64,000 nt of DNA, from contig NZ_CP134500.1 of NCBI RefSeq assembly GCF_031760065.1, positions 6,510,001 through 6,574,000 of the forward strand. The letters run 5' to 3'. The translations under genes were made by a program, and so were the position numbers. The notes under the pieces are model-generated. The model saw only the letters and a program-made list of their open reading frames with translations. It made no database searches and had not been told where the DNA came from. This DNA comes from Streptomyces durocortorensis. GTDB lineage: Bacteria > Actinomycetota > Actinomycetes > Streptomycetales > Streptomycetaceae. Positions 46,412 to 62,788 of the stretch are shown piece by piece (the first letter of the stretch is position 1; each line of letters starts with the position of its first letter).

Positions 46412-46506
46412 AATCGACCCCGGTGGTTCACAGAAGCTCCTTATAGTGGTCCCGCGTTGATCGTATGGTCGCAACGCGCGAAGCCGTCGCCACTGGAGTC
46501 CGTACG

Positions 46507-47808
46507 ATGACGAACCCCTCGTCCGCCACGCCCGAGCCCCCGGCCGGTGGAGGCGGTCGCTGTCCCATGGGCTCCGGCACGGGAGCCGTCCCGATCGGCG
46601 GGCCCGGCTTCCACGTCGAACCCCAGGAGCTCTACCGGTCCATGCGGCGCGAGCACGGACCCGTCGTCCCGGTGGAGCTGCCCGGCGGCTTCCCCGCCTG
46701 GCTCGTGATCGGCTACCGGGAACTCCACCAGGTCACCAGCGACGGGGAGTTGTTCCCCCGGGACGTCTCCCTGTGGAACCAGTGGGAGAACGTCCCCGCC
46801 GACTGGCCGCTGCTGCCCATGGTCGGCACGCCCATGCCCTCCATCTACTTCACCGCCGGGGCCGAGCACCGCCGCCACGTCGACATGGTCGTACCGGCAC
46901 TCGAAGGCGCCGACCCCTTCGAAATCCGTCAGCACTGCGAGCAGTTGGCCGACCGGCTCATCGACGCCGTGTGCAGCCGCGGCACCGCCGACCTCGTCGC
47001 CGAGTTCGCCGAACCGCTCCCCGTCCTCGTCCTCGCCCGGCTCGTCGGGTTCCCCGACGACGAGGGCGCCGACATCGCGCGGGTGCTCAAGGACCTCGCC
47101 GACGGCGGCCCCGACGCCCAGAAGGCCCATCTGCGCTTCGGCGAGCACATGCAGCGGCTCGTCGCGGCGAAGCGGGCGCGGCCGGGCGACGACGTGACCT
47201 CCCGGATGCTCGCCCACCCGGGGCCGTTCACCGACGAGGAGTACGCGCTCGACCTGATGGCCATCACGGCCGCGGGCCATCTGACCACCGCCGACTGGAT
47301 CAGCAACTCCACCCGGCTGATGCTCACCGAGGACCAGTTCGCCGATGCCCTGTCCGGTGGGCGGCACAGCGTCGCCGAGGCCATGAACGAGGTGCTCTGG
47401 GAGGACGGCCCGACCCAGATCCTGGCCGGGCGGTGGGCCTCGCGCGACGCCCGGCTCGGCGGGCGCGAGATCGCCCGCGGCGACATGCTCCTCCTCGGCC
47501 TCGGCGCGGCCAACGCCGACCCGCACATCCGCCAGCAGGTCACGGACGTGGTGGTCCGGTCCGGGCAGGGCGGCAACAGCGCGCACATGGCGTTCAGCCA
47601 CGGCGAGTACCGCTGCCCCTTCCCCGCCCAGGAGATCGCCGAGATCATCGCCCGTACCGGCATCGAGGTGCTGCTCGACCGGCTGCCCGACCTCGAACTG
47701 TCCGTCCCCGTGACGGAGCTCGTGCGCCGGCCGTCCGCCTTTCTGCGCGGCACGACCGCGCTGCCCGTACGCTTCACGCCCGTACGCTCGACAGGAGACG
47801 CGTTGTGA
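46507..47808 (+). CDS. cytochrome P450, CYP157-like, without the ExxR arginine
   Basis: This 433-aa P450 has a Pro/Gly-rich N-terminus with CPMGSG. The I-helix region is ITAAGHLTTADW, and the meander-like part GRWASRDARLGG follows. The heme Cys370 lies in FSHGEYRCPFPAQEIAE. In the K-helix the usual ExxR reads E295-V-L-W298, so the near-invariant arginine is tryptophan. Loss of ExxR in the form E-x-x-W is described for CYP157 enzymes, which often pair with a CYP154 gene, as here with the overlapping downstream gene. ATG 46507 follows GGAG; an in-frame ATG 42 bp upstream is possible. Whether it turns over substrate or assists its partner is unknown. Confidence 0.85.
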   Translation: MTNPSSATPEPPAGGGGRCPMGSGTGAVPIGGPGFHVEPQELYRSMRREHGPVVPVELPGGFPAWLVIGYRELHQVTSDGELFPRDVSLWNQWENVPADWPLLPMVGTPMPSIYFTAGAEHRRHVDMVVPALEGADPFEIRQHCEQLADRLIDAVCSRGTADLVAEFAEPLPVLVLARLVGFPDDEGADIARVLKDLADGGPDAQKAHLRFGEHMQRLVAAKRARPGDDVTSRMLAHPGPFTDEEYALDLMAITAAGHLTTADWISNSTRLMLTEDQFADALSGGRHSVAEAMNEVLWEDGPTQILAGRWASRDARLGGREIARGDMLLLGLGAANADPHIRQQVTDVVVRSGQGGNSAHMAFSHGEYRCPFPAQEIAEIIARTGIEVLLDRLPDLELSVPVTELVRRPSAFLRGTTALPVRFTPVRSTGDAL

Positions 47809-49058
47809 ACTGCCCGCACACTGCCGCCGCGCAGGCCGACCGGAGCGGCGGGCCCGTCGTCATCGACCCCATGGTCCAGGACCTGGACGGCGAGACGGCA
47901 CGGCTGCGCGACGCCGGGGTGCTCGCCCGGATCGACCTGCTCGGCGTACCGGCCCGGACGGTCACCCGGCACGCCGAGGCACGCCAACTGCTCGTCGATC
48001 CCCGGCTGGTGAAGGACATCAACGCCTGGGACCTCTGGCAGAGCGGTGCCGTGACCCACGCCTGGCCGCTCATCGGCATGATCGACGCCGGACGCTCCAT
48101 GTTCACCGTGGACGGGGCCGAGCACCGGCGGCTGCGCACCAAGACCTCGCAGGCGCTCACCCCGCGGCGGCTCGAAGCGATCCGCCCGGCCATCGAGAAG
48201 TTCACCGAAGAGCTGCTGGACGACCTGGAGGCCGCACGAGGCGAGGACGGGGTCGTCGACCTCAAGACCGTGTTCGCCCAGCCGCTGCCGATGCGGGTGG
48301 TCGGCATGCTCATGGGCGTCGACGAGTCCCAGCACGCCATGCTGACCCGGAAGTACAAGGCGTTCTTCTCGATGCTCACCCCGCAGGAGGAACGCCTCGC
48401 CCTCCTGGCCGAGTTGGACGTCTTCTACACCGAACTGGTCCGGGAGAAGACCGCCCGGCCGACCGACGACCTCACCAGCGCGCTGATCCTCGCCGAGGAG
48501 GGCGGCGAGCCGCTCACCGAGGAAGAGGTGGTCGGCAACCTCAAGGCCATGGTGGCCGCCGGGCACGAGACCACCATCGGGCTGATCCTCAACGCCGTAC
48601 GCGCCCTGCTCTCCCACCCCGACCAGCTGCGCCAGGTCCTCGCCGGGGAGTCCGGCTGGGACGCGGTGATCGAGGAGACGCTGCGCTGGGACACCCCCAC
48701 CACCCACCTGCTGATGCGGTTCGCCACCGAGGACATCCCGGTGGGCGACGACGTCATACGCAAGGGGGAAGGGATCGTCATCTCCTACCGGGCCATCGGG
48801 CGCGACACCGGGCAGCACGGCCCCGACGCCGACGCCTTCGACATCAACCGGCCCACGCGCAACCGCCACATGACCTTCGGGCACGGCCCGCACATCTGCC
48901 CCGGCGCCGCGCTGTCACGCGTCGAGGCGGGTGTCGCCCTGCCCGCCCTCTTCGCCCGCTTCCCCCGGCTGCGGCTCGCCGTACCGGACGAGGAGATCAC
49001 CAAACTCCCCGTGATGACGCAGAACGACATGGCCGCCTTCCCCGTGCTGCTGGGCTGA
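47805..49058 (+). CDS. cytochrome P450, CYP154-like
   Basis: This 417-aa P450 starts at GTG inside the upstream P450 stop after an AGGAG site. Canonical motifs are intact: the I-helix MVAAGHETTIGLI, ExxR at E291-R294 (ETLR), and the heme loop FGHGPHICPGAALSR with Cys365. FTVDGAEHRRLRTKTSQALTP is the C-helix region with heme-propionate contacts. It forms a coupled pair with the ExxR-less P450. In many Streptomyces such pairs belong to conservons (cvnABCD plus P450s), but no cvn GTPase, roadblock or kinase gene precedes them here. Substrate unknown; no ferredoxin gene is adjacent. Confidence 0.9.
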   Translation: MNCPHTAAAQADRSGGPVVIDPMVQDLDGETARLRDAGVLARIDLLGVPARTVTRHAEARQLLVDPRLVKDINAWDLWQSGAVTHAWPLIGMIDAGRSMFTVDGAEHRRLRTKTSQALTPRRLEAIRPAIEKFTEELLDDLEAARGEDGVVDLKTVFAQPLPMRVVGMLMGVDESQHAMLTRKYKAFFSMLTPQEERLALLAELDVFYTELVREKTARPTDDLTSALILAEEGGEPLTEEEVVGNLKAMVAAGHETTIGLILNAVRALLSHPDQLRQVLAGESGWDAVIEETLRWDTPTTHLLMRFATEDIPVGDDVIRKGEGIVISYRAIGRDTGQHGPDADAFDINRPTRNRHMTFGHGPHICPGAALSRVEAGVALPALFARFPRLRLAVPDEEITKLPVMTQNDMAAFPVLLG

Positions 49059-49059
49059 G

Positions 49060-49290
49060 CCCGCCGTACGTGCCTTCGCCCGGCGGCTCACCGAGGAGTG
49101 CGGGGCCACCCTGCCCAGTGCCGTCGTCGTGGACGTGGGCCGGATGCGGCGCCCCGGCCGGGCGCCCGCCGAGGCGGTCATCGAGGCCGACATGGCCTGG
49201 TCCGGCACCGTGTGCGCCGCCGACCCGGACCGCGCCCTGGACGTGGTGCTCCGGTCGGCGGGCCCCGCGGGCCTGGCCGGTGCGGCCGAC
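49060..49290 (+). pseudogene. C-terminal remnant of an ATP-grasp protein
   Basis: Immediately after the P450 stop, one frame reads AVRAFARRLTEECGATLPSA, VVVDVGRM and, after an odd Arg/Pro/Ala stretch, VIEADMAWSGTVCAADPDRA and LDVVLRSA. This resembles the last third of ATP-grasp ligase-like proteins (VVDVG ... VVEANAAWxSGxxxxDPxxVLDVL). No upstream part exists, because the frame would lie inside the P450 gene. It is probably the tail of a gene truncated when the P450 pair was inserted. The family link is by eye only. The remaining bases to 49465 contain no other gene. Confidence 0.42.
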
Positions 49291-49465
49291 CTGGCGTTCC
49301 GGCGGACCGGGGACAACGGGTCCACGAACCGGGTGCGAGGCGGCCGCCCCGGTGGGGCGGACGGTGCCGCAGGGGTGGTGAGAGATCCTGGTTGCCGAAG
49401 ATTCATCGTGGTAACTTCGCCGTCAGCCATGTGAGTTGGACCGACTCGGCGGGGGATGGTCGGTG

Positions 49466-50983
49466 ATGAACGCTGTCCCGTACGAGCGTTGGGGACCGGA
49501 CCTGGTGCAGACCCTGGTCGACGCGCTGACCCTGCTCGAATGCGTCAAGGACCGAGGCCAGCGCGTCGAGTTCGTGGACGCCGTCGCCTTCAAGCTCGGC
49601 GTCGAACTGACCTACCCCGACAGCACGCCCCGCATCGACATGATGCACCTCGTGCGCAAGGTCATCCACCGGCCCGGCGGACCCGAGGCGCTGATCTACG
49701 GCGTCCGAGCCGTCTCCGGAAAGGACGACGCCGAGCGGATCGCCGCCGAGGCGGGCATCCGGACCGAGGACGACCGGCAGCCGCCATGGCCCGCCCCGGT
49801 CTTCGCCGACGGTGTCGCCCGGGAGGCGCGCAGGCTGCTCGGCGAGGCGACGGACCTCGACGGAACCCGGCTGCGGGCCTTGATCGCCCAGGAGCTGCCC
49901 GGGGATCTGCCGGACGGCGGATCGCCCGTCGAACTCTTCGACCACGCACTGGACATGGCCGCCCGGGCCGACGGTCTCCCGGCCGCCGTCGTGCTGATCG
50001 AGGCGGCCGCGGCCCTGTCGGCGGAGCGGCGCGCACCGCTGCGCCGATGGACGGACCGGTGGGCGGCGGGGGACCCCACCGCCCCGGCCGCCGCCGCCCG
50101 GGTGGCGGTTCCCGGGGCCGCGGAAGCGGTCGCCGCGTGCCGTCGGCGCCTCGACCGGCCCGCGGCCCCCGACCCGACCGTGCCCCGGTGCCTGGTCGTG
50201 ATGGTCGACCCCGCCCACGACGGTTCCCCGGACGTCTTCGTAAGGCACTGGATCAACAAGGCCCCCGGCTACTGGCGGCCGGAGCCCGGCCCGGTCGAGA
50301 CCGTCACCCTGGCCACCCTCGCCGGTGCCGTCGAACGCGCCGTCGAGAAGGGCGAGCGACTGTGGGCCCGCACCCCCGGGGGGACCGACGAGGGGCCGGT
50401 CCACGTCGAGTTCCTGCTGCCTTTCGAGCTGCTGAACCACGACATGGCCCGCCTCGAACTGGGCAGCAGAGCCCCGAGGCCCTGGCCGCTCGGGATGCGC
50501 TATCACGTCCACCTCCGCAGCCTGGACCGGATGCGCGGCGACGCCGGGCAACTGCGCCGCTGGCAGACCCGCTGGGAGCGGCTGCGCAAGGCGCCCGCCC
50601 CGGCGACCCACCGCTGGCGTTCCACGGACCGGGACGGGTTCGAACGATGGCGGGCGCACCTCGCGGGCGACGAACGGCTGACCGCGGTCATCCTCGACGC
50701 ACCCGCGCTCCCGGGGCAGGGCCTGGAGGCCCTCCAGGCCGCCGTCCTCGAAGGCGTCGGCCTCGCCGCCTGGGACCGCAGACCCGGCAGCACCTCCCAG
50801 TCCAGCGAGCTGCTGACCCTGCTCCTGGGGCACCCTTACACACAACTACCGGAAAAAGTCGGCAGGTTGAGGACCGGGGCGGAAGTCGAGGAGGACGGCC
50901 CGCTGTGGGTCGGGCGACACGTCGCGTTCCTGTGGGACGACCCGTACCGACTGGTCGACCGTGAGGAGTTGTTACCGGCATGA
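49466..50983 (+). CDS. VMAP (vWA-MoxR-associated protein) with N-terminal EAD2-like domain
   Basis: This 505-aa protein has two visible parts. Residues ~8-90 form a helical adaptor with the effector-associated-domain-2 pattern (TLVDALTLLECVKDRGQRVE, then PRIDMMHLVRKVIHRPGGPEALI). Residues ~230-505 fit the VMAP C-terminal domain: CLVVMVDPAH, VHVEFLLPFELLNHDMARLEL, LGMRYHVHLRSLDRMR, and SELLTLLLGHPYTQLPEKVGRL near the end. VMAPs are the variable scaffolds of ternary conflict systems with a MoxR ATPase and a vWA protein. Both follow directly here, with a 4-bp overlap to the ATPase. It carries no effector of its own; the EAD2 probably recruits the caspase at 57730, whose C-terminus has the same fold. 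Confidence 0.82.
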   Translation: MNAVPYERWGPDLVQTLVDALTLLECVKDRGQRVEFVDAVAFKLGVELTYPDSTPRIDMMHLVRKVIHRPGGPEALIYGVRAVSGKDDAERIAAEAGIRTEDDRQPPWPAPVFADGVAREARRLLGEATDLDGTRLRALIAQELPGDLPDGGSPVELFDHALDMAARADGLPAAVVLIEAAAALSAERRAPLRRWTDRWAAGDPTAPAAAARVAVPGAAEAVAACRRRLDRPAAPDPTVPRCLVVMVDPAHDGSPDVFVRHWINKAPGYWRPEPGPVETVTLATLAGAVERAVEKGERLWARTPGGTDEGPVHVEFLLPFELLNHDMARLELGSRAPRPWPLGMRYHVHLRSLDRMRGDAGQLRRWQTRWERLRKAPAPATHRWRSTDRDGFERWRAHLAGDERLTAVILDAPALPGQGLEALQAAVLEGVGLAAWDRRPGSTSQSSELLTLLLGHPYTQLPEKVGRLRTGAEVEEDGPLWVGRHVAFLWDDPYRLVDREELLPA

Positions 50984-52053
50984 CCGGACAGGCCGCCGCA
51001 TCACCGCCGTCGCCGCCCCCGTGGTGGGTCTTCCACGCGACCGGCAGGGCCCCGGAGGGCGAGCCGCCCGTGCTGCCCCCGCCACCGCCGTGGCGCACGT
51101 TCCCCGGCGGACCGCTCCAGCCGCCGCCCCCCGAGGACGACCGCGCCGCCGAGCGCCGCCTCGGCCTGGTCCAGGACGGGCCGCAGCTGCGCGAGGAGGA
51201 GATCGACGCGGTCAACGCGTCCCTGCTGCTGCGCCGCCCGCTCCTCATCACCGGCCCGCCGGGCGTCGGCAAGTCCACCCTGGCCTATCTGATCGCCCGT
51301 GAGCTGGGACTCGGCCGGGTCCTGCAATGGAGCGTCGTCAGCCGCAGCACCCTCAGGGGCGGCCTGTACGCGTACGACGCGATCGGCCGCGCCCAGGCCA
51401 TCGCGGCCTGGCGGGCGGCCGACTCGGGGGACGGCCGGGCCGGGCCGGGTGCGGGGACGACCCCGGACGCCGAAGGGCCTCCCGCGCTGGGGGATTTCGT
51501 CACGCTCGGGCCGCTGGGCACGGCGCTGCTCGCCTTCGAGCGCCCCCGGGTGCTGCTCGTCGATGAACTCGACAAGAGCGACATCGACCTGCCGAACGAC
51601 CTTCTCCACGTCCTGGAGAACGGCAGCTACGACATCCCCGAACTCGGGCGCAGCGACGTGGGGTCGGCGACCGTGTTCACCGACGACCCGCACGGCCGCG
51701 CCCTGGTCGAGGGCGGCCGGGTGGAGTGCGCGCAGTTCCCGGTCGTGGTCATCACGAGCAACGGCGAGCGTGAGTTCCCCGCCGCGTTCCGCCGCCGCTG
51801 CCTGCCGCTGGAGATGCGCCCGCCCAGCCGCGAGCAGCTGATCGGTATCGTCGTCAGCCACTTGCAGCAGTGCCCGGAGGGCGTCGAGGCGCTCGTCGAC
51901 GAGTTCGAGAACCGGCTGCGCGGCGGCGGAACCCAGTCGATCGACCAGTTGCTGAACGCCGTTCAGCTGACGACCGCGGGCGGTTTTCAACCCGATGCCG
52001 CCGGGCGTAAGCTCATCGAGATGCTCCTCCGAGACCTCTCGAAGGGCCGCTGA
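50980..52053 (+). CDS. MoxR-type AAA+ ATPase of the VMAP system
   Basis: This 357-aa AAA+ ATPase has a Pro-rich N-terminal tail of about 50 residues with paired WWVFHATG and WRTFPGG tryptophan motifs. Walker A is GPPGVGKST at residues 92-100, Walker B LLVDELDKSDIDLPNDLLHVLE near 190, and sensor region VVVITSNGEREFPAAFRRRCLPLE near 258. It differs from the MoxR at 33212 and is of the type found in VMAP and FxSxx-associated loci. It overlaps both neighbours by 1-4 bp. Its likely role is ATP-driven remodelling that licenses the VMAP/vWA complex. Confidence 0.9.
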   Translation: MTGQAAASPPSPPPWWVFHATGRAPEGEPPVLPPPPPWRTFPGGPLQPPPPEDDRAAERRLGLVQDGPQLREEEIDAVNASLLLRRPLLITGPPGVGKSTLAYLIARELGLGRVLQWSVVSRSTLRGGLYAYDAIGRAQAIAAWRAADSGDGRAGPGAGTTPDAEGPPALGDFVTLGPLGTALLAFERPRVLLVDELDKSDIDLPNDLLHVLENGSYDIPELGRSDVGSATVFTDDPHGRALVEGGRVECAQFPVVVITSNGEREFPAAFRRRCLPLEMRPPSREQLIGIVVSHLQQCPEGVEALVDEFENRLRGGGTQSIDQLLNAVQLTTAGGFQPDAAGRKLIEMLLRDLSKGR

Positions 52054-55000
52054 TGGACGGCTTGCCCCGGGAGCGCGCTCCGGACACCTCGTCCGTGCCG
52101 ACCGACTCCCCCGACCGCGACCCAGGCGACCGACATGAGGGCGGCGGCCCGCACGATCCCGGCGGGACCGACTGGAGGGTCCTAGCCGACGCGGCCTGGC
52201 TCGCGGCAGCCCGCATCGGCTCCGCCCGCACCGGCAGCCCAGGACCGGGCCGGCCGCCCTCCGACGTACCCCACCCCGACGCACCGTTCCCCACGGACCT
52301 GCCGCCCTCCGGGCCGCACGGCCCCGGCGCGGACACCGTGCCCGGGGTCTCCGGGGTGCCCGGGCCCCCGGAGTTCGAACGCGAGATCCGGTCCGTCCGG
52401 GAGCGGGCCCACGGCAGCCCCGACCGGATGCCGGGCACCGGCACCGCCCCCGTACGGGCGACCTCACTGCGCCTGGCCCGGTCCCTTCGCGGGCTCGGCC
52501 GCCGGGTCCCCACCCGGGCCCGGTCCGTGCTGGACGAGGAGGGCACGGCCGAGCACGGGCTCGCCGACGGGCTGTGGGTGCCCTACTTCCTCCCCGACCG
52601 GGAGCGGATGTTCGACCTCGTGCTCCTCGTCGACCGGGCCCCCACCATGCCGCCCTGGGCCGGTACGGTCCGCGGCATCGCCGACGACGCGGCGCACAGC
52701 GGGGCGTTCCGCGATGTGCGCACCGTCGGGGTGACCCTGCCCGCGGACGACGGGGAGCCCGCGCTGCGCTGGCCCGGTGGCCGCGACGGCGACCCCGCCG
52801 AACTGCTCGACGGGCGGGGCTCACGGCTCTTCCTCGTCGTCACGGACGGCCTCGCCCACGGCTGGGCGGGCAGCGGTGCGGACCGGTTGCTGGCCCGGCT
52901 CGCCGCCGGCGGGCCCACCGCCCTCGTCCACCTGCTGCCGCCCTACCTGCGCCACCGCTCCTCGCTGTTCCCCTTCCGGGCCCAGCTGGACGCCGGCGGG
53001 TTCGGCGCGCTGAACAGGCGCTTCGACTGCCGTCCGCCGGGCGGCCTGCGCGACCCGGTCCGCCCGTTGCCCGAACCGGCTGACGACACCGTGCCCGTAC
53101 CGGTGCTCAGCGTGCGCGCCGGGTCCTTCCGCGCCTGGGCCGACCTGGTCACCGGGGAGCGGGGAGTGCGCCGCACCCTGCCGGTGGTGCTGGCGGGGGC
53201 GATGGCCAAGGGGGCCTCCGCCCCCGGGCTGCGCACCCCCGCGCTCGACGGCCCCCGCGCGGCGGCCGCCGCCGTACGCCGCTTCCGTTCGCTCTCCAGC
53301 CCGCTGGCCAGGCAGCTCGCCGTCCTGCTGGCGGTCGTCCCGATGGACTTCGCCGTCATCGAGGAGCTGCGCGACCGGGCCCTGCCGGACGCCGGGCCCG
53401 AGCATCTGGCCGAGGTCATGATGGGCGGGCTCATCGACTGGAACGCCCACGGCGAGGGCGGCCCGGACTTCGCCGGGGACGTACGCGAGGCCCTGCTCGC
53501 CACCAGCACCCGCACCCAACTCGCCCGCACGGTGGGCCTGCTGGCGGAGCTGCGTACCGGCGGCGGACACGGCGCCCGGCTCCGGGCCGCGCTCCACGAC
53601 CCGGTACGGGCCGCCCTGCCCGGCACCGGACCCGGCGCCCGGCCCTGGCTCAGGATCGAGCTGGCCGTGCTGCGGGCGCTGGCGGGTCCCTACGCCGGGC
53701 GCGCGGCCCGGGTGGCGGCCCGTCTGGTGCGAACGCCGGACGACTCGGCTGCCCACCCGGGTGATATCGACGCAAGTGCGGTGAAAGTAGACCGGAAGTA
53801 CGCCACGGTGGCACTGGACAGCGTCGTTTCACCAGGAGGATCCGTGTCGCCCACGACACCCCCAGCAGCTGACACCTCGGCACCAGCTGACAACACCGCC
53901 CGGAGGGCTCACGAGGACATGGAAGTCAAAGCGCCGGAACTCCGCTTCGTCCGTTCGGGCCAGCCGAAGATCATGGGCAACGTTCCGCCCAAGAACCCCA
54001 ACTTCACCGGCCGCGAGTCCCTGCTCGCCGCCGTGGAGCGGCAGCTGACCGAGGACGAGACGACGGCGGTCCTCCCGCACGCTCTGCACGGCCTCGGCGG
54101 CGTGGGCAAGTCGCAGATCGCGGTGGAGTACGTCTACCGCCACAGCGCCGAGTACAACGTCATCTGGTGGATTCCCGCCGAGCAGGAGAGCCTGATCCTC
54201 GGTGCTCTGGCGGAGCTGGCCAGGAGCCTCGGCCTGGAGGTCGGGCCGCAGGCCAACACCGCCGTCCCCGCCGTCCGCGAGGCCCTGCGCACCGGCAAGC
54301 CGTTCGACAACTGGCTGCTGGTCTTCGATAACGCCGAGGACATCGAGGCGGTCCGTTCGTACTTCCCGAACGGCGGCCCCGGAAAGATCATCGTCACCTC
54401 CCGCAACCGTGAATGGGAGCGGGTCGCCACCCCCCTCAGCGTCGACGTCTTCGACCGGGAGGAGAGCATCGCCCTGCTCAAGCGGCGGGCCCGGGGGCTG
54501 ACCACCCACGACGCCGACCGGCTCGCCGAGGCCCTCGGCGACCTGCCCCTGGCGGTCGAGCAGGCGGGCGCCTGGCACGCGGCCACCGGCATGCCGGTCG
54601 ACGAGTATCTCCAACTGCTCGAAGAGCGCCGCCCCGAGATCCTCGAACTCACCCCGTCCCCCGACTACCCCCTGCCGGTCGCCGCGGTCTGGGACATCTC
54701 CCTGGGGCGCCTCTCCGTCGAGAACCCGGCCGCCCGCCAACTGCTCCAGATCTGCGCCTGCATGGCACCGGAGCCGATCCCGCTGAACATGCTGCGCGGC
54801 GGCCGCAACGTGCAGATCACCCCGGAGCTGGACCCCGTGCTGCGCGACCCGCTGCTGCTGGCCCGCGCCACCCGCGATCTCAGCAAGCTCTCCCTGGTCC
54901 GCCTCGACCACAAGGCCGGGACGCTCCAGATGCACCGGCTGATGCAGAACGTGATCGTCGCCCGGCTCGACCCCGAGGAGCGGGAGCGGATGCGCAACGC

Positions 55001-56441
55001 CGCGCATCTGCTCCTCACCACCGCCAAGCCCGGGGTCCCCGCCTCGCCCGAACAGTGGCCCGCCTACCTCGGTCTGCTGCCGCACGTGATCGCGTCGGAG
55101 GCGGTCAGCAGCTCCGACGCCTGGGTGCGCGACCTGGTCTTCGACATGGTCACCTTCCTCTACTACTGGGGCGCCCACGAGGCGGGAGCGGACCTGACCC
55201 GCAAGGCGTGGGCAGCCTGGCGCGCCCAGTCGGGCGAGGAGGACCTGCACGTCATCCGGATCACCAAGATGCTCGGCTTCTACCTCCAGCACCTCGGCCG
55301 GATCGCGGAGGCCGCGGTGCTGAGCGAGCAGGCCCTGGAGATCTCGCGCGGCGCGCCGATCCCGGACGAGGAACTCATCGACTCCATGCTCCAGATGGCC
55401 GGTTCGCTGCGCTACCGGGGCGACTTCTACGCCGCCCGCGACCTCGACGCCGAAGCCTTCGAACGGGCGAGCGACCTCTACGGGATGGAGGACCCGACGA
55501 CGCTGAGCGCGGCGCACAGCCACGGCATCTCGCTGCGCGTGAGCGGTGACTTCCGGCGGGCGAAGGAGCTCGACGAAGAGACCGTCAGGCAGCGCCAGTT
55601 GCTGTACGGGCCGACCAGCGGCCTCACGCTGAACACCCTGAACGCCCTGGCCATCGACATCCGTGAGGCGGGCGACTTCCTGGAGGCCAGGGCCCTTCAG
55701 GAGTCGACGTACCAGACCTATCTGACCCACTTCGGCGCGACCAACGCCGCCACGATCCGGGCCGCGCTGAACCTCGCGAACTGCCGCCGCCGCGCGGGCC
55801 TGCTGGAGGGCGCGTCGGAGCTGGTCGAGGAGGTCCTGGAGCGGTTCACCACCCGGTACGGCGCCGAGTACCCGGAGACGCTGGGCGCCGCGATGGCGGC
55901 CGTCGTCGACCGCAGGATGGCGGGCAGGCTGGAGGACTCGCGGCGGCTCGGCCGGCAGATCCTCGTCCGCTACCGCGACATCTTCGGCGAGCATCACCCG
56001 TACACGATGTGCGCGATGGTCAATGTGGCGGCCACCCTGCGGGCCGTGGGGGACGTGGAGGAGGCCGAGCGACTGGACGCGGTCGCGGGCGAACGGCTGC
56101 GGGCCGACCTGGGGGAGCGGCACCCCTACACGCTGGCGGCGGCGCTGAGCCGGGCCAACGACCACTACGCCCGGCTGGACTTCGCCGGTGCCCTGGAGGT
56201 CGACAGCACCACGCTGCCGCTGCTCACCGAGGTGGCGGGCGCCGACCATCCGATGACCCTCGCCTGCGTCGCCAACCTCTCCCTGGACCAGCGGGGGCTG
56301 GGCCGCTCGGCCGAGGCGGACCGGCTCAACGCCCAGGCGGTGGAAGGGCTGACGCGGGTCCTGGGGGACCAGCACCCGTGGCAGACCTCCGCCCGGCTGC
56401 ACCAGCGCATCGAGTGCGACGTGGTGGTGATGCCGCTGTGA
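52053..56441 (+). CDS. SAV_2336-like N-terminus, NB-ARC NTPase and tetratricopeptide protein (FxsT-like)
   Basis: This 1462-aa protein opens with a Pro/Asp-rich stretch, then a SAV_2336-type region with a vWA-like strand (~170-560; YFLPDRERMFDLVLLVDRAP, LFLVVTDGLAHGW, LARQLAVLLAVVPMDF). The vWA has no proper MIDAS. From ~650 an NB-ARC domain follows: NPNFTGRESLLAAVERQL, Walker A GLGGVGKSQ near 680-688, VIWWIPAEQ, LLVFDNAED, and DLPLAVEQAGAWH. The last ~430 residues are TPR units (LEISRGAP, TTLSAAHSHGISLRVSGDF, LTLNTLNALAIDIREAGDF, HPYTMCAMVNVAATLRAVGD). This architecture matches the TPR protein of FxSxx-COOH peptide systems. By inference it is the sensor-switch of the locus. The start lies inside the MoxR stop. 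Confidence 0.87.
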   Translation: MDGLPRERAPDTSSVPTDSPDRDPGDRHEGGGPHDPGGTDWRVLADAAWLAAARIGSARTGSPGPGRPPSDVPHPDAPFPTDLPPSGPHGPGADTVPGVSGVPGPPEFEREIRSVRERAHGSPDRMPGTGTAPVRATSLRLARSLRGLGRRVPTRARSVLDEEGTAEHGLADGLWVPYFLPDRERMFDLVLLVDRAPTMPPWAGTVRGIADDAAHSGAFRDVRTVGVTLPADDGEPALRWPGGRDGDPAELLDGRGSRLFLVVTDGLAHGWAGSGADRLLARLAAGGPTALVHLLPPYLRHRSSLFPFRAQLDAGGFGALNRRFDCRPPGGLRDPVRPLPEPADDTVPVPVLSVRAGSFRAWADLVTGERGVRRTLPVVLAGAMAKGASAPGLRTPALDGPRAAAAAVRRFRSLSSPLARQLAVLLAVVPMDFAVIEELRDRALPDAGPEHLAEVMMGGLIDWNAHGEGGPDFAGDVREALLATSTRTQLARTVGLLAELRTGGGHGARLRAALHDPVRAALPGTGPGARPWLRIELAVLRALAGPYAGRAARVAARLVRTPDDSAAHPGDIDASAVKVDRKYATVALDSVVSPGGSVSPTTPPAADTSAPADNTARRAHEDMEVKAPELRFVRSGQPKIMGNVPPKNPNFTGRESLLAAVERQLTEDETTAVLPHALHGLGGVGKSQIAVEYVYRHSAEYNVIWWIPAEQESLILGALAELARSLGLEVGPQANTAVPAVREALRTGKPFDNWLLVFDNAEDIEAVRSYFPNGGPGKIIVTSRNREWERVATPLSVDVFDREESIALLKRRARGLTTHDADRLAEALGDLPLAVEQAGAWHAATGMPVDEYLQLLEERRPEILELTPSPDYPLPVAAVWDISLGRLSVENPAARQLLQICACMAPEPIPLNMLRGGRNVQITPELDPVLRDPLLLARATRDLSKLSLVRLDHKAGTLQMHRLMQNVIVARLDPEERERMRNAAHLLLTTAKPGVPASPEQWPAYLGLLPHVIASEAVSSSDAWVRDLVFDMVTFLYYWGAHEAGADLTRKAWAAWRAQSGEEDLHVIRITKMLGFYLQHLGRIAEAAVLSEQALEISRGAPIPDEELIDSMLQMAGSLRYRGDFYAARDLDAEAFERASDLYGMEDPTTLSAAHSHGISLRVSGDFRRAKELDEETVRQRQLLYGPTSGLTLNTLNALAIDIREAGDFLEARALQESTYQTYLTHFGATNAATIRAALNLANCRRRAGLLEGASELVEEVLERFTTRYGAEYPETLGAAMAAVVDRRMAGRLEDSRRLGRQILVRYRDIFGEHHPYTMCAMVNVAATLRAVGDVEEAERLDAVAGERLRADLGERHPYTLAAALSRANDHYARLDFAGALEVDSTTLPLLTEVAGADHPMTLACVANLSLDQRGLGRSAEADRLNAQAVEGLTRVLGDQHPWQTSARLHQRIECDVVVMPL

Positions 56442-56533
56442 ACGGGGGGCACTCGGCTGCTGCCCCGGACTGAACCGGGCACATCGACACACCGGCCAGG
56501 GGTGGCCGGAGGATCACTCACGGGGGGCGACGC

Positions 56534-57733
56534 ATGACCACGGTCATATTCATCCACGGCACCGGGGTGCGGCCGCCGCACTCCGCGGCCCTGACCGCCC
56601 GGGTCACCGCCTCGCTGGCCGAGACCGCACCCCGGGTGCGCGTCGTGCCCCTCGACTGGGGCGAGCGGTACGGTGCGCGGCTCGGGGCCGGTGGCGCCAG
56701 CATCCCGCCCGAGGTGGCCGGGGCCACCGGACGGGACACGGCGGAAGAGGCGTACGGGACGGGCGGGGCGGGCGAGACGTACGAGGCCGATGCGGAGACC
56801 GTGCTGTGGGACCGCCTCTACCGGGACCCCGAGGCGGAGCTCGCCCTCGCCGCCGCTCGCGGTCCCTCCGGCCGGACACCCCCCGGCGCGGCCTTCCCGG
56901 ACGAGGACATCCGGGAGCGGCTGGCGGCGCTGGCCGCCCGGGGCGACGCGGCCGCGCCGGAGCTGGGCCCCGGCCTCGCCGCGCACGCCACCGCCCTCGC
57001 CCGCAGCCCCCTGCTCGCCCCGGCCGCCGAGGCACTGGACCCCGAGGAACTGGCGTGGACTCTCGCCCGCGCCCTGGCCGCGGCGGTGACCGGCGCGGCT
57101 CTCGCGGCGGACGCGCCCGTGATCTGCGACGGCGCCACCCGCGACGCCGCCGTCGACCGGATGGCCGTGGCCCTCGGCGGCGCCGCGCAGGGGAGTGGCA
57201 GGGGGCCGGTGGGCCGGCTGATCGGACGGCCCGTCCTCCGGCTCGGCAGCCGGTACGCGGTGCGCCGCCGGCGGGCCCTCACCGGGGCCGCCCACCCGGC
57301 GGCGGGCGATGTGCTCAAGTACCTCGTACGCGGCGGACCGGTGCGCACCGCGCTGCGCGAGCTGGCCGCCACCGCCGAGCCGCCCGTCGTCCTCCTCGGT
57401 CACAGCCTGGGCGGGATCATCGCCCTCGACACGCTGATCGAGGCCCCGCTCCCCGGCGTCCGCCTGCTGGTCACGGTCGGCTCGCAGGGGCCGTTCCTGT
57501 ACGAGACGGGCGCGCTGCCCCGTCTCGACCACCCGGACCCGCTGCCCGCCCACGTCCCCCCGTGGCTGAACATCCACGACCGCCGCGATCTGCTCGGCTA
57601 TGCCGCCGCAGCCCTGTTCCCCGGCCGTGCCGAGGACATCGCGACGGACAACCGGCAGCCGTTCCCGGCCGCCCACAGCGCCTACTGGTCCGACCCGGCG
57701 GTCTACCGCGCCATCGGGGAGCGGCTGCCGTGA
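56534..57733 (+). CDS. alpha/beta hydrolase of the VMAP locus
   Basis: This 399-aa hydrolase begins TTVIFIHGTGVRPPHS, an oxyanion-type HG motif. The nucleophile elbow GHSLGG has Ser291, with VTVGSQGPF and WLNIHDRRDLLGYAA downstream supplying a likely acid and AAHSAYW a likely catalytic His. The middle (~60-270) is an Ala-rich helical insert with no known domain. It follows the TPR protein by 92 bp and overlaps the caspase start by 4 bp. In this setting it is a candidate lipase/esterase effector, or an enzyme releasing a modified peptide; the substrate is unknown. Confidence 0.82.
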   Translation: MTTVIFIHGTGVRPPHSAALTARVTASLAETAPRVRVVPLDWGERYGARLGAGGASIPPEVAGATGRDTAEEAYGTGGAGETYEADAETVLWDRLYRDPEAELALAAARGPSGRTPPGAAFPDEDIRERLAALAARGDAAAPELGPGLAAHATALARSPLLAPAAEALDPEELAWTLARALAAAVTGAALAADAPVICDGATRDAAVDRMAVALGGAAQGSGRGPVGRLIGRPVLRLGSRYAVRRRRALTGAAHPAAGDVLKYLVRGGPVRTALRELAATAEPPVVLLGHSLGGIIALDTLIEAPLPGVRLLVTVGSQGPFLYETGALPRLDHPDPLPAHVPPWLNIHDRRDLLGYAAAALFPGRAEDIATDNRQPFPAAHSAYWSDPAVYRAIGERLP

Positions 57734-58896
57734 CCGGGCGCAGCGTCGACCCGGCGCGGGTGACGGCGCTCATCGTGGGCGTCGAGCGCTACGCCGCGGG
57801 CCCCCGCTGGACCCTGCCGGGGCCGGTCCGCGACGCCCTGCGCTTCCGGGCCTGGCTGCGCTCCGCAGGCGTACCGGACACCAATATCCTGCTGCACCTC
57901 GCCCCCGCGGAGAGTCCCGCCGGGGGCCCGGCAAAGGAGCCGGACGGGAGGTCCGGTGCGGGCGGCGGTCACGGGCCCGCCGACCACGAGACCCTGCGCC
58001 GGGTCCTGGTCCACGAACTGCCCGCCCGGCAGGGGGACGTGCTCTGGATCTGGTGGGGCGGCCACGGGGTTCTGGACCGCGAGGAACACCAGCGGCTGTA
58101 CTGCGCCGACGCCTCGGGCGCGGACCGGCGCAACATCGACCTGGAGTCCGCCCGCCGCCGGCTCAGCAGCGACGCGCTGCCCGGGTTCGCGGTGCAGAAC
58201 TGGGTCGTCGACGCCTGCCAGACCTTCGAGGAACGCCACAACGAGCCCGTGTCGCTCCCGGACGGGGGCCTCCCCGCCGGGCAGCGGCTGCGGGTGCACC
58301 GGCAGAACGTGATGCTGGCCGCCGACCGGGGACAGCGCGCGGCCAACGACCCCGTACGCGGCCACGGCGTGTTCTCGGACATCCTGCTGCGCGAACTGTC
58401 CGCGCTGCCGGACGACTTGGCCCCCGACCCCGAGGCCCTCTTCGTCGCCGTCCGCGCCCGCTTCGACCGGCTGCGTGCCGAGGGGAACGGAACCCAGCTG
58501 CCCGTACTCCGGCTCTACCGGGCCGGACACGAGGAGATCCTTCCCCCGGCTGCACCAACACCCCCGCCGACCAACGGATTTCGCCCCGTAGGTGCGCGGA
58601 CGGGCGGGGGGCTGCTCCGTGTGGTCGAGGCGCTCCTGGCGTATCCGCTGATGCTCGACCGGGACGAACGGCAGGCGATGGTCGCGGAGCTGGATCCCGT
58701 CCTGGTAGCCCGGATGCCGCGGCACGCGGTGCCCCGTACGGACGTGATGGGCATCCTGCGTACGGTACGGCGGAGCCCCGAGGGCCTCCGGGACCTCTTC
58801 CGGGCCGTCACCCTGCTCGACGACGATCCTGACCGGGCAGCCGAACTCGACGGAGCGATCGGGGAGTTCCTGGCCGAGGTGCCACCCGGTCCGTGA
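57730..58896 (+). CDS. caspase-like protease with C-terminal EAD2-like adaptor domain
   Basis: This 388-aa protein starts at GTG in the upstream stop. The caspase/metacaspase fold spans about residues 12-290: TALIVGVERY, catalytic His112 in WWGGHGVLD, and catalytic Cys163 in NWVVDACQTFEE, with VMLAADRGQRAANDP and GHGVFSDILLREL after it. Residues ~293-388 form a helical domain (LLRVVEALLAYPLMLDRDER, then PRTDVMGILRTVRRSPEGLRD) with the same spacing as the N-terminal domain of the VMAP. In such systems a caspase is the death- or cleavage-effector held inactive by partners. A 13-bp tandem repeat overlaps its stop. Confidence 0.87.
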   Translation: MTGRSVDPARVTALIVGVERYAAGPRWTLPGPVRDALRFRAWLRSAGVPDTNILLHLAPAESPAGGPAKEPDGRSGAGGGHGPADHETLRRVLVHELPARQGDVLWIWWGGHGVLDREEHQRLYCADASGADRRNIDLESARRRLSSDALPGFAVQNWVVDACQTFEERHNEPVSLPDGGLPAGQRLRVHRQNVMLAADRGQRAANDPVRGHGVFSDILLRELSALPDDLAPDPEALFVAVRARFDRLRAEGNGTQLPVLRLYRAGHEEILPPAAPTPPPTNGFRPVGARTGGGLLRVVEALLAYPLMLDRDERQAMVAELDPVLVARMPRHAVPRTDVMGILRTVRRSPEGLRDLFRAVTLLDDDPDRAAELDGAIGEFLAEVPPGP

Positions 58897-58917
58897 TCGC
58901 ACGGCGTGATCGCACGG
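58892..58917 (+). repeat. 13-bp tandem repeat across the caspase stop
   Basis: CGTGATCGCACGG occurs at 58892-58904 and immediately again at 58905-58917. The first copy contains the TGA stop (58894-58896); the second restates GTGA outside the gene. It may be a duplication with no function. Confidence 0.8.
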
Positions 58918-59012
58918 GTTTCCGGAAGGCAACCCATTCGTCATGATGGGAGGGACGAGTGGCATGGTGTGCCGTCGGACCGCCAGGCCGGACCATTGAG
59001 GGGGAACACGTC

Positions 59013-59201
59013 TTGCAGCAGACGGAACCGGGCGGGAATCCGGCCGACTACCTGGAGTCGGACGTCGCGGATCTCACGGAGATGAGCGTGGCCGCCGTAC
59101 GTGACCTGGCTCCCGTGCCCGGACGGCGTCTGCTGGAGGAGATCCGACGGGCGCGCATCAGCACGGTCGCGGGCGAACCGCCCCAAGCCCGCGCGGACTG
59201 A
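59013..59201 (+). CDS. 62-aa candidate precursor peptide of the HExxH hydroxylase locus
   Basis: TTG start follows GAGGGGGAA; a GTG at 58959 would add 18 residues. The peptide has a leader-like acidic stretch YLESDVADLTEMSVAAVRDL, similar to the DLTxxSLAxLRxL motif of FxSxx-COOH precursors, then an Arg-rich helix (GRRLLEEIRRA) and a tail RISTVAGEPPQARAD. The FxSxx terminus itself is missing, so a classical cyclophane-forming core is not present. Position directly before the HExxH enzyme (59-bp gap), in the same strand and at precursor size, argues for a RiPP substrate whose Ser/Thr/Val/Asp tail could be hydroxylated. It could also be a small regulator. Confidence 0.6.
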   Translation: MQQTEPGGNPADYLESDVADLTEMSVAAVRDLAPVPGRRLLEEIRRARISTVAGEPPQARAD

Positions 59202-59260
59202 GGATCTTCGGGCCCGGCCGGGGGAGAGGAGCGCGTCGGACCACGACAGAGGAGCGCGGG

Positions 59261-61036
59261 GTGCACAGACCGATCCGGATGCCCGGCCACTGGTTCGACG
59301 AACTCGCCGCGGGCGGGGGCTCGGCAGAGGCGGTCGCGTTCCTCGTCAGCGGCGAGCGGGCCCGGCGCCTCGCTCTCCTGGGCGACTTGCTGGGCCGCCT
59401 GGAGGAGCGGCCCGCGCTGCTCGGACCCGCCGACCTCGGCGCGATCTGGGGCGCTGTCGAGGAGGCCGAGGGCCGGAGCCCAGGCTGTGTCGAGGACGTG
59501 CTGCTCAGCCCCCAGGCCGGCGGCTGGCTCGCGCACACCCTGCGCAGGCTGCACGGCACTGCCGTGGGTCCTCCGCTGTGGGTGGAGACCGGGCACCTGG
59601 CCGCCGTCGCCCTGGTGGCAGCCCTGCGCGCCGGAACCGCCGCCGACCTCGTCGTACCGGCGAGGGACGGCGATGTGGCCCTGCCCACGCTCGGCCTCGC
59701 CCGGCTGCCGGGCGCCCCGCCACCGGGGTTCCAGCCGGTCCGGGCGCTCGTACGGGACCAGGAGCTGACCCTCACCGCGAGCGGGCGGGCCACCGGGGCG
59801 ATGGACTTGACCCTACGGCCGCTCACCGCGCCGCAGAACGGCCTGTGGTGGCCGACGCACCGGCTTCCGGTCCGGCCCGGCGGGCCCGAGGTCGCCCTCG
59901 ACGACACCGACCCCTACCGCGACCTCGACCGCCCGGTCCCGCCCCGTCGGCTCACCCCTGATGAACTGGCCACCTGGCGGAGGCGCTTCGACGAAGCGGT
60001 GGGGCTACTGGGCCCCGGCCCGGCTTCGGGCTCCGGCCCCGGCACCCTGCGCCCCGAGGAGGTCCGGCGCATCGTGCCCTGGCCCGGACGGCTGACCGGC
60101 ACCCCCGTCGAGGGGCTCAGCGCCTCCACCGGCGACGCGTTCGGCTCGATGGTCGTGGCCGGGCCCCCGGACGGTGCGGCACTCGCCGAGACGATGGTCC
60201 ACGAGTTCCAGCACAGCAAGCTCGGCGCGCTGCTCCACCTCTTCCCGATGCTCGACGACGACCGGGCGGAGGAGCACTACGCCCCCTGGCGCCCCGACCC
60301 GCGCCACTTGCCGGGGCTGCTGCACGGCGCGTACGCCTTCGTGGGCGTCGCCGGATTCTGGCGGGCGCGGATCGGGGACCGGGCCGCCGACCCGCACGGC
60401 CTGGCGCCCTTCCGGTTCGCGCTCCGCCGCGTCCAGACCCGTACGGTCCTGCGTACCCTGGCCACCCGCGCCTCCCTCACCCCGCCCGGCCGCCGTCTGG
60501 TCGCCGGGCTCACCCGGACCGTCGACGGCTGGCTGCGCGAACCGCTGGACGGGCCGGCCGTGGCACGTGCCCGGGCCGCGGCGGCCGGTCACCGGGTCGA
60601 GTGGCGGCTGCGCAATCTGCGGTGCGCGGACGAGGAGCGCGCGGCCCTGGCGGTGGCGCCGCGCTCCGGGGCAGCCCCGGTCACCGGGCGGCGGCCGGTG
60701 CTCGTCCCGGTCGCGGAGCGCGGCCGCTGGAGGGACGTCCGGGGCGCCCTCCACCTCCGCCCGGACGCCGTGCCCGACGGGGCGTGCCGCGCCGACGTCC
60801 TGCTGGTGCGGGGCGAGGCGGCGGCGGCCCGGGAGGCGTACGCGCGGGGCTGGGCCGACGCGCCGGGGGACCCGCACCTGATGGCGGGCTGGCTGCTTGC
60901 CCACACGGCCCTCCACCCCGGCCACCGGCGCCTCCTCGCCCGCCCGGAACGGTTCGCGGCGGCCGTGGCGGAGGCGGACCCGGGGGAGTGGGAGCGGGCC
61001 GTCCGGTGGCTCGCGGGGGCGGAGCGGCGGGGCTGA
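59261..61036 (+). CDS. HExxH-motif peptide-modification enzyme (2-oxoglutarate-dependent beta-hydroxylase type)
   Basis: This 591-aa protein starts at GTG (MHRPIRMPGHWFDELAAG). The HExxH motif is H314-E315-F-Q-H318 in MVHEFQHSKLGALLHL, followed by the family pattern LDDDRAEEHYAPWRPDPRHL and LLHGAYAFVGVAGFW. Both stretches are characteristic of the HEXXH peptide-modification family (TIGR04267-like), recently linked to 2-oxoglutarate-dependent beta-hydroxylation of RiPP precursors. The N-terminal half is helical with LRRLHGTAVGPPLWVETGHLAAVAL, and the last 150 residues are Arg/Ala-rich helices. It usually sits with a radical SAM maturase and FxSxx peptide; here the radical SAM gene is not in the window. 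The 62-aa ORF upstream is the likely substrate. Confidence 0.85.
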   Translation: MHRPIRMPGHWFDELAAGGGSAEAVAFLVSGERARRLALLGDLLGRLEERPALLGPADLGAIWGAVEEAEGRSPGCVEDVLLSPQAGGWLAHTLRRLHGTAVGPPLWVETGHLAAVALVAALRAGTAADLVVPARDGDVALPTLGLARLPGAPPPGFQPVRALVRDQELTLTASGRATGAMDLTLRPLTAPQNGLWWPTHRLPVRPGGPEVALDDTDPYRDLDRPVPPRRLTPDELATWRRRFDEAVGLLGPGPASGSGPGTLRPEEVRRIVPWPGRLTGTPVEGLSASTGDAFGSMVVAGPPDGAALAETMVHEFQHSKLGALLHLFPMLDDDRAEEHYAPWRPDPRHLPGLLHGAYAFVGVAGFWRARIGDRAADPHGLAPFRFALRRVQTRTVLRTLATRASLTPPGRRLVAGLTRTVDGWLREPLDGPAVARARAAAAGHRVEWRLRNLRCADEERAALAVAPRSGAAPVTGRRPVLVPVAERGRWRDVRGALHLRPDAVPDGACRADVLLVRGEAAAAREAYARGWADAPGDPHLMAGWLLAHTALHPGHRRLLARPERFAAAVAEADPGEWERAVRWLAGAERRG

Positions 61037-61285
61037 GGCCGCGGGCGGAGCCGCCGGGCCGAGCCGGAGCGCGCGCGGGCCCTCGTCAGCCCCATGTCAG
61101 GCCCGCTCCAGGCCTCCATCGGAGGGTTCACACGTGAGGCGCATCACTCTGAGTGAAATTCTCGGCATACATTCCGCCGGACCGGGGAGGGGTCCAGGCT
61201 GCTGGTGCGCCGTACCCGGCCCGCCATGCAGCACGCCCCGGCCGAACCGGAGGGGGCATTTCAGGCACGGAAGGCGAAAAACGAC

Positions 61286-62788
61286 ATGTCGGCGCTCAGT
61301 ACCATCCACATCGACGGCGTCTGGCGGGCCGCCGGATCCGGCGCGACACGCGAGGTCCTCGACCCCGCCGACGCCACTGTCCTGGCCGTCGTCGCGGAGG
61401 GCGGCGTCGAGGACACCGATGCGGCGATCGCGGCGGCGCGGCGCGCCTTCGACGACGGCCCCTGGCCGCACAAGCCCGTCGCCGAGCGGGCCGGGCTGCT
61501 GCGCCGGGTCGCCGAGCTGCTCCAGCGGGACCGCGAGGAGATCGCGATCACCGAGAGCCGCGACACCGGCAAGACCCTCGAAGAGGGCCGGGTCGACGTC
61601 GACGACGTCACAGGCGCCTTCCGCTACTTCGCCGACCTCGTGATGAACGAGAGCGGCGGCCGGGTCGTCGACGCGGGCGACCCCGACGTCCACAGCATCG
61701 TCGTGCACGAGCCCGTCGGCGTCTGCGCGCTGATCGCCCCCTGGAACTACCCCCTTCTCCAGGCCAGCTGGAAGATCGCCCCGGCCCTCGCCGCCGGGAA
61801 CACCTTCGTGCTCAAGCCCAGCGAGGTCACCCCGCTCTCCACCGTCCACCTGATCAAGCTCCTCGCCGAGGCCGGACTCCCCGACGGCGCCGCCAACCTC
61901 GTCACCGGCGCGGGCGACCCGGTGGGCGCCCGGCTCTCCGAGCACCCCGACGTCGACCTGGTCTCCTTCACCGGAGGCCTCGCCAGCGGTACGAAGGTGG
62001 CCCAGGCCGCCGCGCCGACCGTGAAGAAGGTCGCCCTGGAGCTCGGCGGCAAGAACCCCAACGTGGTCTTCGCCGATGCCTGCGCCACCGACGAGGACTT
62101 CGACACCGCCGTCGACCAGGCCCTGAACGCCGCGTTCTTCCACAGCGGTCAGGTCTGCTCCGCCGGGGCCCGCCTGATCATCGAGGAGAGCGTCCGCGAG
62201 CGGTTCGTCACCGAGCTGGCCCGCCGCGCGGACGCCATCCGCCTGGGCCGGGGCACCCTCGACGGTGTGGAGTGCGGCCCCCTCGTCTCCGCCCAGCAGC
62301 TCGCCAAGGTCGAGGCGTACGTGGCCTCCGCCCGCGAGGAGGGCGCGATCGTCCGGGCCGGCGGCGAACGCCCGAAGCCCAGCGACGTACGCCCCGAAGG
62401 CGGCTACTTCTACCGGCCGACCGTCCTGGACGGCTGCCACCGCGAGATGCGCGTCGTGCGTGAGGAGACCTTCGGCCCGATCCTCACCGTCGAGACCTTC
62501 CGCACCGAGGAAGAGGCCGTCACGCTGGCCAACGACACCGACTACGGCCTCGCGGGCGCCGTCTGGACGACCGACGCGGGCCGGGCCCGCCGGGTCGCCG
62601 GACGGCTGCGCCACGGCACCGTCTGGATCAACGACTACCACCCCTACCTCCCGCAGGCCGAGTGGGGCGGCTTCGGCAAGTCCGGTACGGGGCGCGAGCT
62701 CGGCCCGACGGGGCTCGCCGAGTACCGCGAGTCCAAGCACATCTACCAGAACCTCAACCCGCGCCCCCAGCGCTGGTTCGCCGGCTGA
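61286..62788 (+). CDS. betaine-aldehyde dehydrogenase-like aldehyde dehydrogenase
   Basis: This 500-aa NAD(P)-dependent aldehyde dehydrogenase has the substrate-channel segment WNYPLLQASWKIAPALAAGN and cofactor loop FTGGLASG. General-base Glu252 lies in LELGGKNPNVVF and nucleophile Cys291 in GQVCSAGARL; EETFGPILTVETF and WINDYHPYLPQAEWGGFGKSG close the fold, the last being typical of betaine-aldehyde enzymes. ATG 61286 follows GGAAGGCGA; an in-frame ATG 60 bp upstream lacks a ribosome site. It is followed by a choline-oxidising GMC enzyme, so the pair makes glycine betaine, the osmoprotectant. The 249-bp gap before it has no gene. Confidence 0.9.
   Translation: MSALSTIHIDGVWRAAGSGATREVLDPADATVLAVVAEGGVEDTDAAIAAARRAFDDGPWPHKPVAERAGLLRRVAELLQRDREEIAITESRDTGKTLEEGRVDVDDVTGAFRYFADLVMNESGGRVVDAGDPDVHSIVVHEPVGVCALIAPWNYPLLQASWKIAPALAAGNTFVLKPSEVTPLSTVHLIKLLAEAGLPDGAANLVTGAGDPVGARLSEHPDVDLVSFTGGLASGTKVAQAAAPTVKKVALELGGKNPNVVFADACATDEDFDTAVDQALNAAFFHSGQVCSAGARLIIEESVRERFVTELARRADAIRLGRGTLDGVECGPLVSAQQLAKVEAYVASAREEGAIVRAGGERPKPSDVRPEGGYFYRPTVLDGCHREMRVVREETFGPILTVETFRTEEEAVTLANDTDYGLAGAVWTTDAGRARRVAGRLRHGTVWINDYHPYLPQAEWGGFGKSGTGRELGPTGLAEYRESKHIYQNLNPRPQRWFAG

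Follow-up and report, generated by a model that had tools for sequence, protein, structure and literature searches.

A VMAP ternary locus of the RxD type in Streptomyces durocortorensis with a probable peptide-oxidising cassette

Introduction

VMAP-MoxR-vWA conflict systems are described in Kaur et al. 2020 (PMC7159879). In the portions of that paper available to us, a peptide and a zincin-like enzyme accompany ~20% of actinobacterial VMAP systems, and the enzyme is taken as a peptidase. The RxD type consists of a small peptide, a zincin-like enzyme and an AP-ATPase/TPR-vWA fusion, with no radical SAM gene; the acidic type shares the fusion, and a radical SAM gene accompanies the FxSxx type. 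A figure legend there notes mutual exclusivity involving peptide modules and peptidase pairings. Here we describe such a locus at 49466–61036 of a 64,000-nucleotide stretch of Streptomyces durocortorensis DNA (contig NZ_CP134500.1, positions 6,510,001 to 6,574,000, forward strand), hereafter the window.

Peptide chemistry that may bear on this locus comes from other bacteria. According to the excerpts of PMC12636437 used here, the Pseudomonas aKG-HEXXH enzymes PflC and PosC hydroxylate Gln and also cleave oxidatively at an ARMD C-terminus, which produces an amide. The nitrilobacillin preprint PMC13060819, in its accessible part, gives Pro hydroxylation before R(V/T)DN.

The locus and its published counterpart

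Seven genes, all on the + strand, overlap their neighbours or sit at most 116 bases from them, in the order VMAP, MoxR, vWA/NB-ARC/TPR, alpha/beta-hydrolase, caspase-EAD2, 62-amino-acid (aa) peptide and TIGR04267 aKG-HExxH enzyme (Table 1). The initial annotation, made from the bare sequence, had proposed this coupled one-strand run, and every gene that it named is indeed there. It had also taken the combination for a hybrid not previously recorded; this does not hold, as the arrangement is already the RxD type of Kaur et al. 2020. We assign the locus to that type because the window peptide ends in ...QARAD. The published type, as far as the available text presents it, and the window have in common the VMAP/MoxR/vWA core, the AP-ATPase/TPR-vWA fusion, an RxD-tailed peptide adjoining a zincin-like HExxH protein, the absence of radical SAM, and an EAD-linked caspase with an alpha/beta-hydrolase. 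There is no difference in kind; the enzyme is read as a peptidase in the paper and looks oxygenase-like here. This cluster type has been known since 2020. What is new is that the likely chemistry of its cassette can be named and tested.

Table 1. Features of the RxD-type locus (window coordinates)
Feature	Length	Position	Strand	Remarks
VMAP	505 aa	49466..50983	+	EAD2 18-89, VMAP-M0 118-209, VMAP-C 258-493
MoxR-type AAA+ ATPase	357 aa	50980..52053	+	AAA matches; overlaps VMAP stop
vWA (SAV_2336 N-terminal)/NB-ARC/DUF7779/TPR protein	1462 aa	52053..56441	+	NCBIfam and Pfam matches
alpha/beta-hydrolase	399 aa	56534..57733	+	nucleophile motif GHSLGG 289-294; Pfam matches below cut-off only
caspase-like peptidase	388 aa	57730..58896	+	C-terminal EAD2 299-375
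promoter-like element CGGGTTTCCG...TTCGTCATGATGG		58915..58949	+	upstream of peptide gene
precursor peptide	62 aa	59013..59201	+	TTG start; C-terminus PPQARAD (RxD type)
aKG-HExxH-type peptide oxygenase (predicted)	591 aa	59261..61036	+	HEFQH 314-318, PWRPDPR 342-348, TPR-like C-terminal part ~506-591

The earlier claims of a VMAP-MoxR-vWA conflict system and of FxSxx-family TPR and HExxH proteins were borne out by the domains and motifs of all three core components and by NF040586 and TIGR04267 matches. VMAP exceeded the Pfam cut-offs for PF19956, PF19916 and PF20028 (VMAP-C, E 2.9e-33); an in-frame GTG at 49463 could also serve as the start. The ATPase has a Walker A motif GPPGVGKS and the strings WWVFHATG and PPWRTF, to be compared with the N-terminal motifs WxhapG and PsWRxa given for VMAP-system MoxR in the accessible text of PMC7159879. 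PPWRTF fits PsWRxa, and WWVFHATG is near WxhapG without being letter-perfect; both motifs recur, with variation, in relatives. The 1462-aa protein scored 386 bits with NF041121 (SAV_2336_NTERM) and 854 bits with NF040586 (FxSxx_TPR) in NCBIfam, and matched NB-ARC, TPR_12 and DUF7779 in Pfam. Its SAV_2336 N-terminal region is, by structure prediction, the vWA component, with a vWA-like fold at residues ~184–369. This region precedes the C-terminal effector part and contains two metal-site aspartates, D194 and D265, both unchanged across 14 sequences. The same portions of PMC7159879 describe vWA extensions with an N-terminal [D/E]xxx[D/E]xxxa and conserved C-terminal S, E and R.

The caspase was found by PADLOC (E 3.4e-11), its EAD2 domain by Pfam (E 3.6e-13); NF047832 was below cut-off. 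It contains GGHG and DACQ, and GHG and DAC strings occur in all 17 relatives checked, a loose test given that the window protein has GHG at three places. For the hydrolase, the GHSxGG motif is present in 14 of the 16 relatives found.

Conservation of the locus

The comparison covers 46 loci. A scan of named genomes supplied 26 of them; the other 20 are stretches of relatives' DNA around the best rows of a search that matched 64 of 100 genomes, the window's own included, apart from one better row on a short contig (G001), which we did not use. Identity between any two of their HExxH proteins is 97% or less over 300 residues; as related sequences, the loci do not count as independent events. All components occur together in 12 of the 46. 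Adjacency of an independent cassette for a ribosomally synthesised and post-translationally modified peptide (RiPP) and a VMAP system by mere chance would suit the fact that order is not fixed: in the complete loci L072 and L073 the hydrolase and caspase genes lie downstream, beyond the enzyme gene. That explanation is refuted by the linkage, found among enzymes none of which is a near copy of another; the association is also published (PMC7159879, in the part available), and we give chance adjacency practically no credence.

Loci with at least 44% enzyme identity number 21. Twelve are complete, five fit as far as their sequence reaches (L016, L017, L020, L022 and L023, with no hydrolase match in L020), one (L021) starts inside the HExxH gene and three carry deletions (L012, L025 and L035). 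The peptide is present in 19 of the 21, and 17 of these 19 end in RxD/E. Conservation of the peptide and HExxH genes beside the VMAP genes, which the initial annotation had made a condition of its reading, is thus seen with the exception of three deletion strains. The deletions span approximately window positions 49158–58544 in L012 and 49708–58837 in L035, with an alignment overlap of 7–8 nucleotides at the joins. In L012 the EAD2 part of the caspase is left; in L035 the first ~79 residues of VMAP are in frame with the last ~20 of the caspase, forming one 107-aa open reading frame (ORF). L025 has two deletions and frame breaks and has lost the peptide. These changes may be real deletions that relieve the cell of a costly system, or faults of draft assemblies.

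Another 17 loci, at 35–41% identity (L026–L030, L075–L085, L087), mostly have the cassette converging on the core genes. They contain NB-ARC/TPR in all 17 cases, vWA in 16, the peptide in 14, and VMAP in 13 and MoxR in 9, the last two counted from tblastn with window queries (E < 1e-5), by which divergent copies may be missed. The remaining eight, at 33–37%, have other arrangements, with an NB-ARC/TPR match in every one (25–26% in L086 and L088) and no leader-profile peptide within 1.5 kb upstream. The steadiest partner of the enzyme is NB-ARC/TPR, linked to it in 40 of the 46 loci; Kaur et al. 2020 drew the same coupling. We therefore think it likely that the NB-ARC/TPR protein reads what the cassette makes, an assignment to which we would give an even chance.

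The peptide and its tail

The 62-aa ORF is a real gene, because its TTG start is kept in 18 of 20 aligned rows (the exceptions are L023 and L024) and searching with a profile brought up 123 proteins at E ≤ 0.001, of which P0008 is the window peptide itself. The TTG is preceded by a GGGGGAA stretch. Tails were counted in the 120 proteins listed of the 123 found. RxD/E ends 114 of the 120, a figure that is partly circular since the full profile included the tail and the window's own peptide is among those counted. The tails are GRAE (71), ARAD (19), ARAE (18), PRAD (3), GRAD (2) and PRAE (1); the other six are GLAD, SQAH, PGEN, SGVA, GVAE and GGEG. Thus 110 of the 120 listed have [A/G]RA[D/E], with G or A at position −4. 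Many of these homologues (P0003–P0122), members of a precursor family of ~60 aa, are misannotated as aldo/keto reductase, and two are named FXSXX-COOH protein.

A cleaner check of the tail came from a leader-only profile, built from ten seeds that we chose from ORFs beside the enzyme, with the last 12 residues of each cut off. With it, the loci yielded 38 different peptides, of which 24 carry RxD/E and 22 [A/G/S]RxD/E. Among the 26 whose tails are outside the seeds, 15 carry both motifs. The 4310 remaining small ORFs of these loci gave 15 with RxD/E and 8 with [A/G/S]RxD/E. In 23 of the 24 RxD/E peptides the Arg is preceded by a Pro at a distance of 1–3 residues.

The element upstream of the peptide gene has blocks TTTCCG and CATGAT separated by 17 bases. 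Its exact pattern occurs once in the genome and not at all in a reversed control, and the CAT[GC]ATGG block is in 17 of 20 aligned rows, being absent from L024, L072 and L073. We take the element as a putative promoter of the peptide gene's own.

The HExxH enzyme

The enzyme matches TIGR04267 with 166 bits (cut-off 40), whereas its 94 bits with NF040587, the inactivated FxsBH form, fall below the cut-off of 225; its HExxH motif is intact. NCBIfam names the family aKG-HExxH-type peptide beta-hydroxylase, and the solved folds closest to the predicted one include the ChlH oxygenase. An Fe(II)/2-oxoglutarate oxygenase is the most likely identity of the protein, and there is a strong probability that it acts as such on the peptide. 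It differs from ChlBH/ChlH (PDB 8s5f) and from SjiH (PDB 22ob), for which we found no substrate in the literature, in standing alone and in having a TPR-like tail.

The peptidase role assigned in the available text of Kaur et al. 2020 agrees with the intact HExxH motif, and the excerpts of PMC12636437 report that PflC, itself an aKG-HEXXH enzyme, hydrolyses ARMD off a truncated, leaderless substrate with several metals. Full-length substrate, however, was left unhydrolysed by PflC even without O2, and both the ChlH-like fold and the family name point to oxidation. We consider a peptidase unlikely.

Oxidation could stop at hydroxylation. Pro, Asn or Asp near the C-terminus would then be beta-hydroxylated, and RxD/E-COOH would stay as a ligand for a TPR carboxylate pocket. 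ChlH, BpmH and PesO are reported as hydroxylases (PMC12636437, PMC13060819, in the parts at hand), and nearly all RxD/E peptides have a Pro shortly before the Arg. Moreover R, M and D of ARMD are each dispensable for PosC cutting in the excerpts of PMC12636437, so the conservation of Arg and Asp asks for another reader. Set against this is position −4, where the listed tails have the residues that favour PosC cleavage: at the first position of ARMD, A gave full cutting, G partial, and Q, V or S none (same excerpts). Hydroxylation alone is a possibility that we rate below even; it overlaps with the preferred reading, which has hydroxylation and probable clipping, so the two are not exclusive.

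A model for the cassette and the switch

The explanation that we prefer, and hold to be somewhat more probable than not, is an RxD-type VMAP switch with a peptide-oxidising cassette that feeds it. VMAP, MoxR and the vWA/NB-ARC/TPR protein would form the switch, to which the caspase and its hydrolase would be tied through the matching EAD2 domains of caspase and VMAP. By analogy with established families, MoxR-vWA would be an ATP-driven switch, the EADs would pair, and NB-ARC/TPR would be the sensor. Peptide and enzyme would make a two-gene cassette with its own promoter-like element. The oxygenase would recognise the leader ESDVADL...RLLEEIRR and oxidise the C-terminal end, probably hydroxylating near the Pro-rich stretch, and in addition alpha-hydroxylating Ala/Gly of the [A/G]RA[D/E] tail. 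The latter reaction would cleave the backbone, giving ...EPPQ-NH2 with its C-terminal amide on one side and a keto-acyl-RAD fragment on the other. The TPRs of the NB-ARC protein would then read one of these products or the uncut tail, and control would run from this readout to a threshold for caspase deployment by VMAP-EAD2, in a cell-suicide or anti-invader response. Gene content, domains, predicted folds, tail motif and linkage are observed here, whereas the reaction on this peptide, its role as ligand, the direction of control and the part in defence are inferred. The suggestion in the initial annotation that the peptide signals to the caspase/hydrolase pair is a possible reading of this kind.

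Clipping at the tail, for which we put the chance slightly short of even, joins the PflC/PosC and nitrilobacillin chemistry to the window's ARAD by analogy; our literature search returned no paper that joins PflC/PosC-type chemistry to an ARAD tail. The Pseudomonas systems and the window have in common an HExxH enzyme and a precursor tail A-R-x-D. They differ in that the window peptide has no poly-Gln, the seven genes include no MNIO, GNAT or transporter, and the window is linked to a conflict system (compared with the available part of PMC12636437). Kaur et al. 2020 (PMC7159879), in the portions used here, left the product of VMAP peptide modules open; the tail match predicts a stated one. 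If the model is true, a peptide made by an oxygenase would be, in the literature searched, the first signal of defined chemistry in a VMAP conflict system, and would link RiPP chemistry to bacterial switches of the caspase and NLR-like (nucleotide-binding, leucine-rich repeat) kinds.

Several points weigh against this model. The parallel to PflC/PosC is one of HExxH class and tail motif and implies no shared subgroup. PosC cuts the Gly variant only partly (PMC12636437, excerpts), yet 71 of the 120 listed tails are GRAE. RxD/E may be conserved for a different purpose, such as TPR/carboxylate recognition, because PosC tolerates Ala at Arg, Met and Asp of ARMD. Among the loci at 35–41% identity only 6 of the 14 peptides end in RxD/E, though the enzyme persists. 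The vWA match had no Foldseek match at E ≤ 0.001, and PADLOC over the locus matched, besides the caspase, only a few short AAA stretches in MoxR. Our literature search found no experiment on this family. Finally, L012 and L035 have lost most of the VMAP-to-caspase core and kept peptide and enzyme, so the cassette can outlast the core, at least briefly.

Such cassettes without most of a core would also be expected if the peptide were an exported RiPP, a bacteriocin or hormone, with the VMAP genes as neighbours that sense or resist it. The leader-core layout is like that of RiPPs and the promoter-like element is separate, but none of the seven genes matches a transporter family, and NB-ARC/TPR would not be expected so regularly at the enzyme's side. 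We think export most improbable.

A more speculative version of the switch-and-cassette model, which we consider improbable, is a licence gated by O2, 2-oxoglutarate and iron for a bacterial NLR-like switch. The tail would sit in the TPR array as a PTS1 or EEVD tail sits in a carboxylate clamp, and in healthy metabolism the oxygenase would clip or hydroxylate it, in the way that HIF is marked by prolyl hydroxylases. If 2-oxoglutarate or O2 collapsed in an infected cell, the peptide pool would change and the caspase would be released.

The FxSxx locus elsewhere in the genome

The initial annotation saw no radical SAM gene in the window, and this stands: all 22 radical SAM places found genome-wide are outside it. 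It had also said that an fxsB elsewhere completing an ordinary FxSxx locus would count against its reading. An fxsB does exist, the single TIGR04269 (FxsB) match in the genome (C1:1184066-1185148), but it sits in a full locus with FxsA, FxsC and TPR genes of its own. This FxSxx locus (G000:C1:1177459-1185432; L038:3460-11433), ~5.4 Mb from the window locus, is complete by itself: FxsA ending in FNSAL, FxsC, a KGGVGR-ATPase/NB-ARC/TPR protein, and FxsB, whose fused HExxH domain falls in the inactivated class. Because of this complete set, and of the inactivated class of its HExxH domain, FxsB need not serve the window locus, and presumably does not act on it in trans.

With FxSxx-COOH cyclophane loci the window shares an NF040586-type NB-ARC/TPR, an HExxH-family domain and a leader-type peptide. 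It differs in that no FxsB or FxsC was found there, and its HExxH enzyme stands alone with an intact motif. Its peptide has no FxSxx end, terminating in ARAD, and no TIGR04268 match in NCBIfam, whereas the peptide at 1.18 Mb matches TIGR04268.

Variants in relatives and flanking genes

L026, L027 and L028 each have two peptides, with tails ERFD and QRDA, and two HExxH high-scoring segment pairs, seen in L027 as two separate HExxH genes. Between the two L027 peptides lie a trypsin-EAD2 gene and a Trypco2 gene; the cassette is the same, and trypsin replaces the caspase. In L077–L080, L027 and L028, VMAP is near the vWA/NB-ARC/TPR gene, and the stretch fetched gave no MoxR match, which may point to a MoxR-less form; Pfam confirms VMAP and NB-ARC/TPR of L077.

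Just upstream of the window locus (46465–49058) are two cytochrome P450-like genes, the second matching Pfam p450 and the first no Pfam family. P450-like genes also precede VMAP or its remnant in L012, L014, L019, L025 and L035; several loci end too near VMAP to tell. An R2K-clade ATP-grasp gene lies between P450 and VMAP in L025 (L025:8392-9123, by Pfam) and L035 (L035:8363-9244, by eye), and blastn suggests that at ~49058–49460 the window keeps only the 3' part of such a gene. Directly after the locus (61205–62788) is an aldehyde dehydrogenase gene that looks unrelated.

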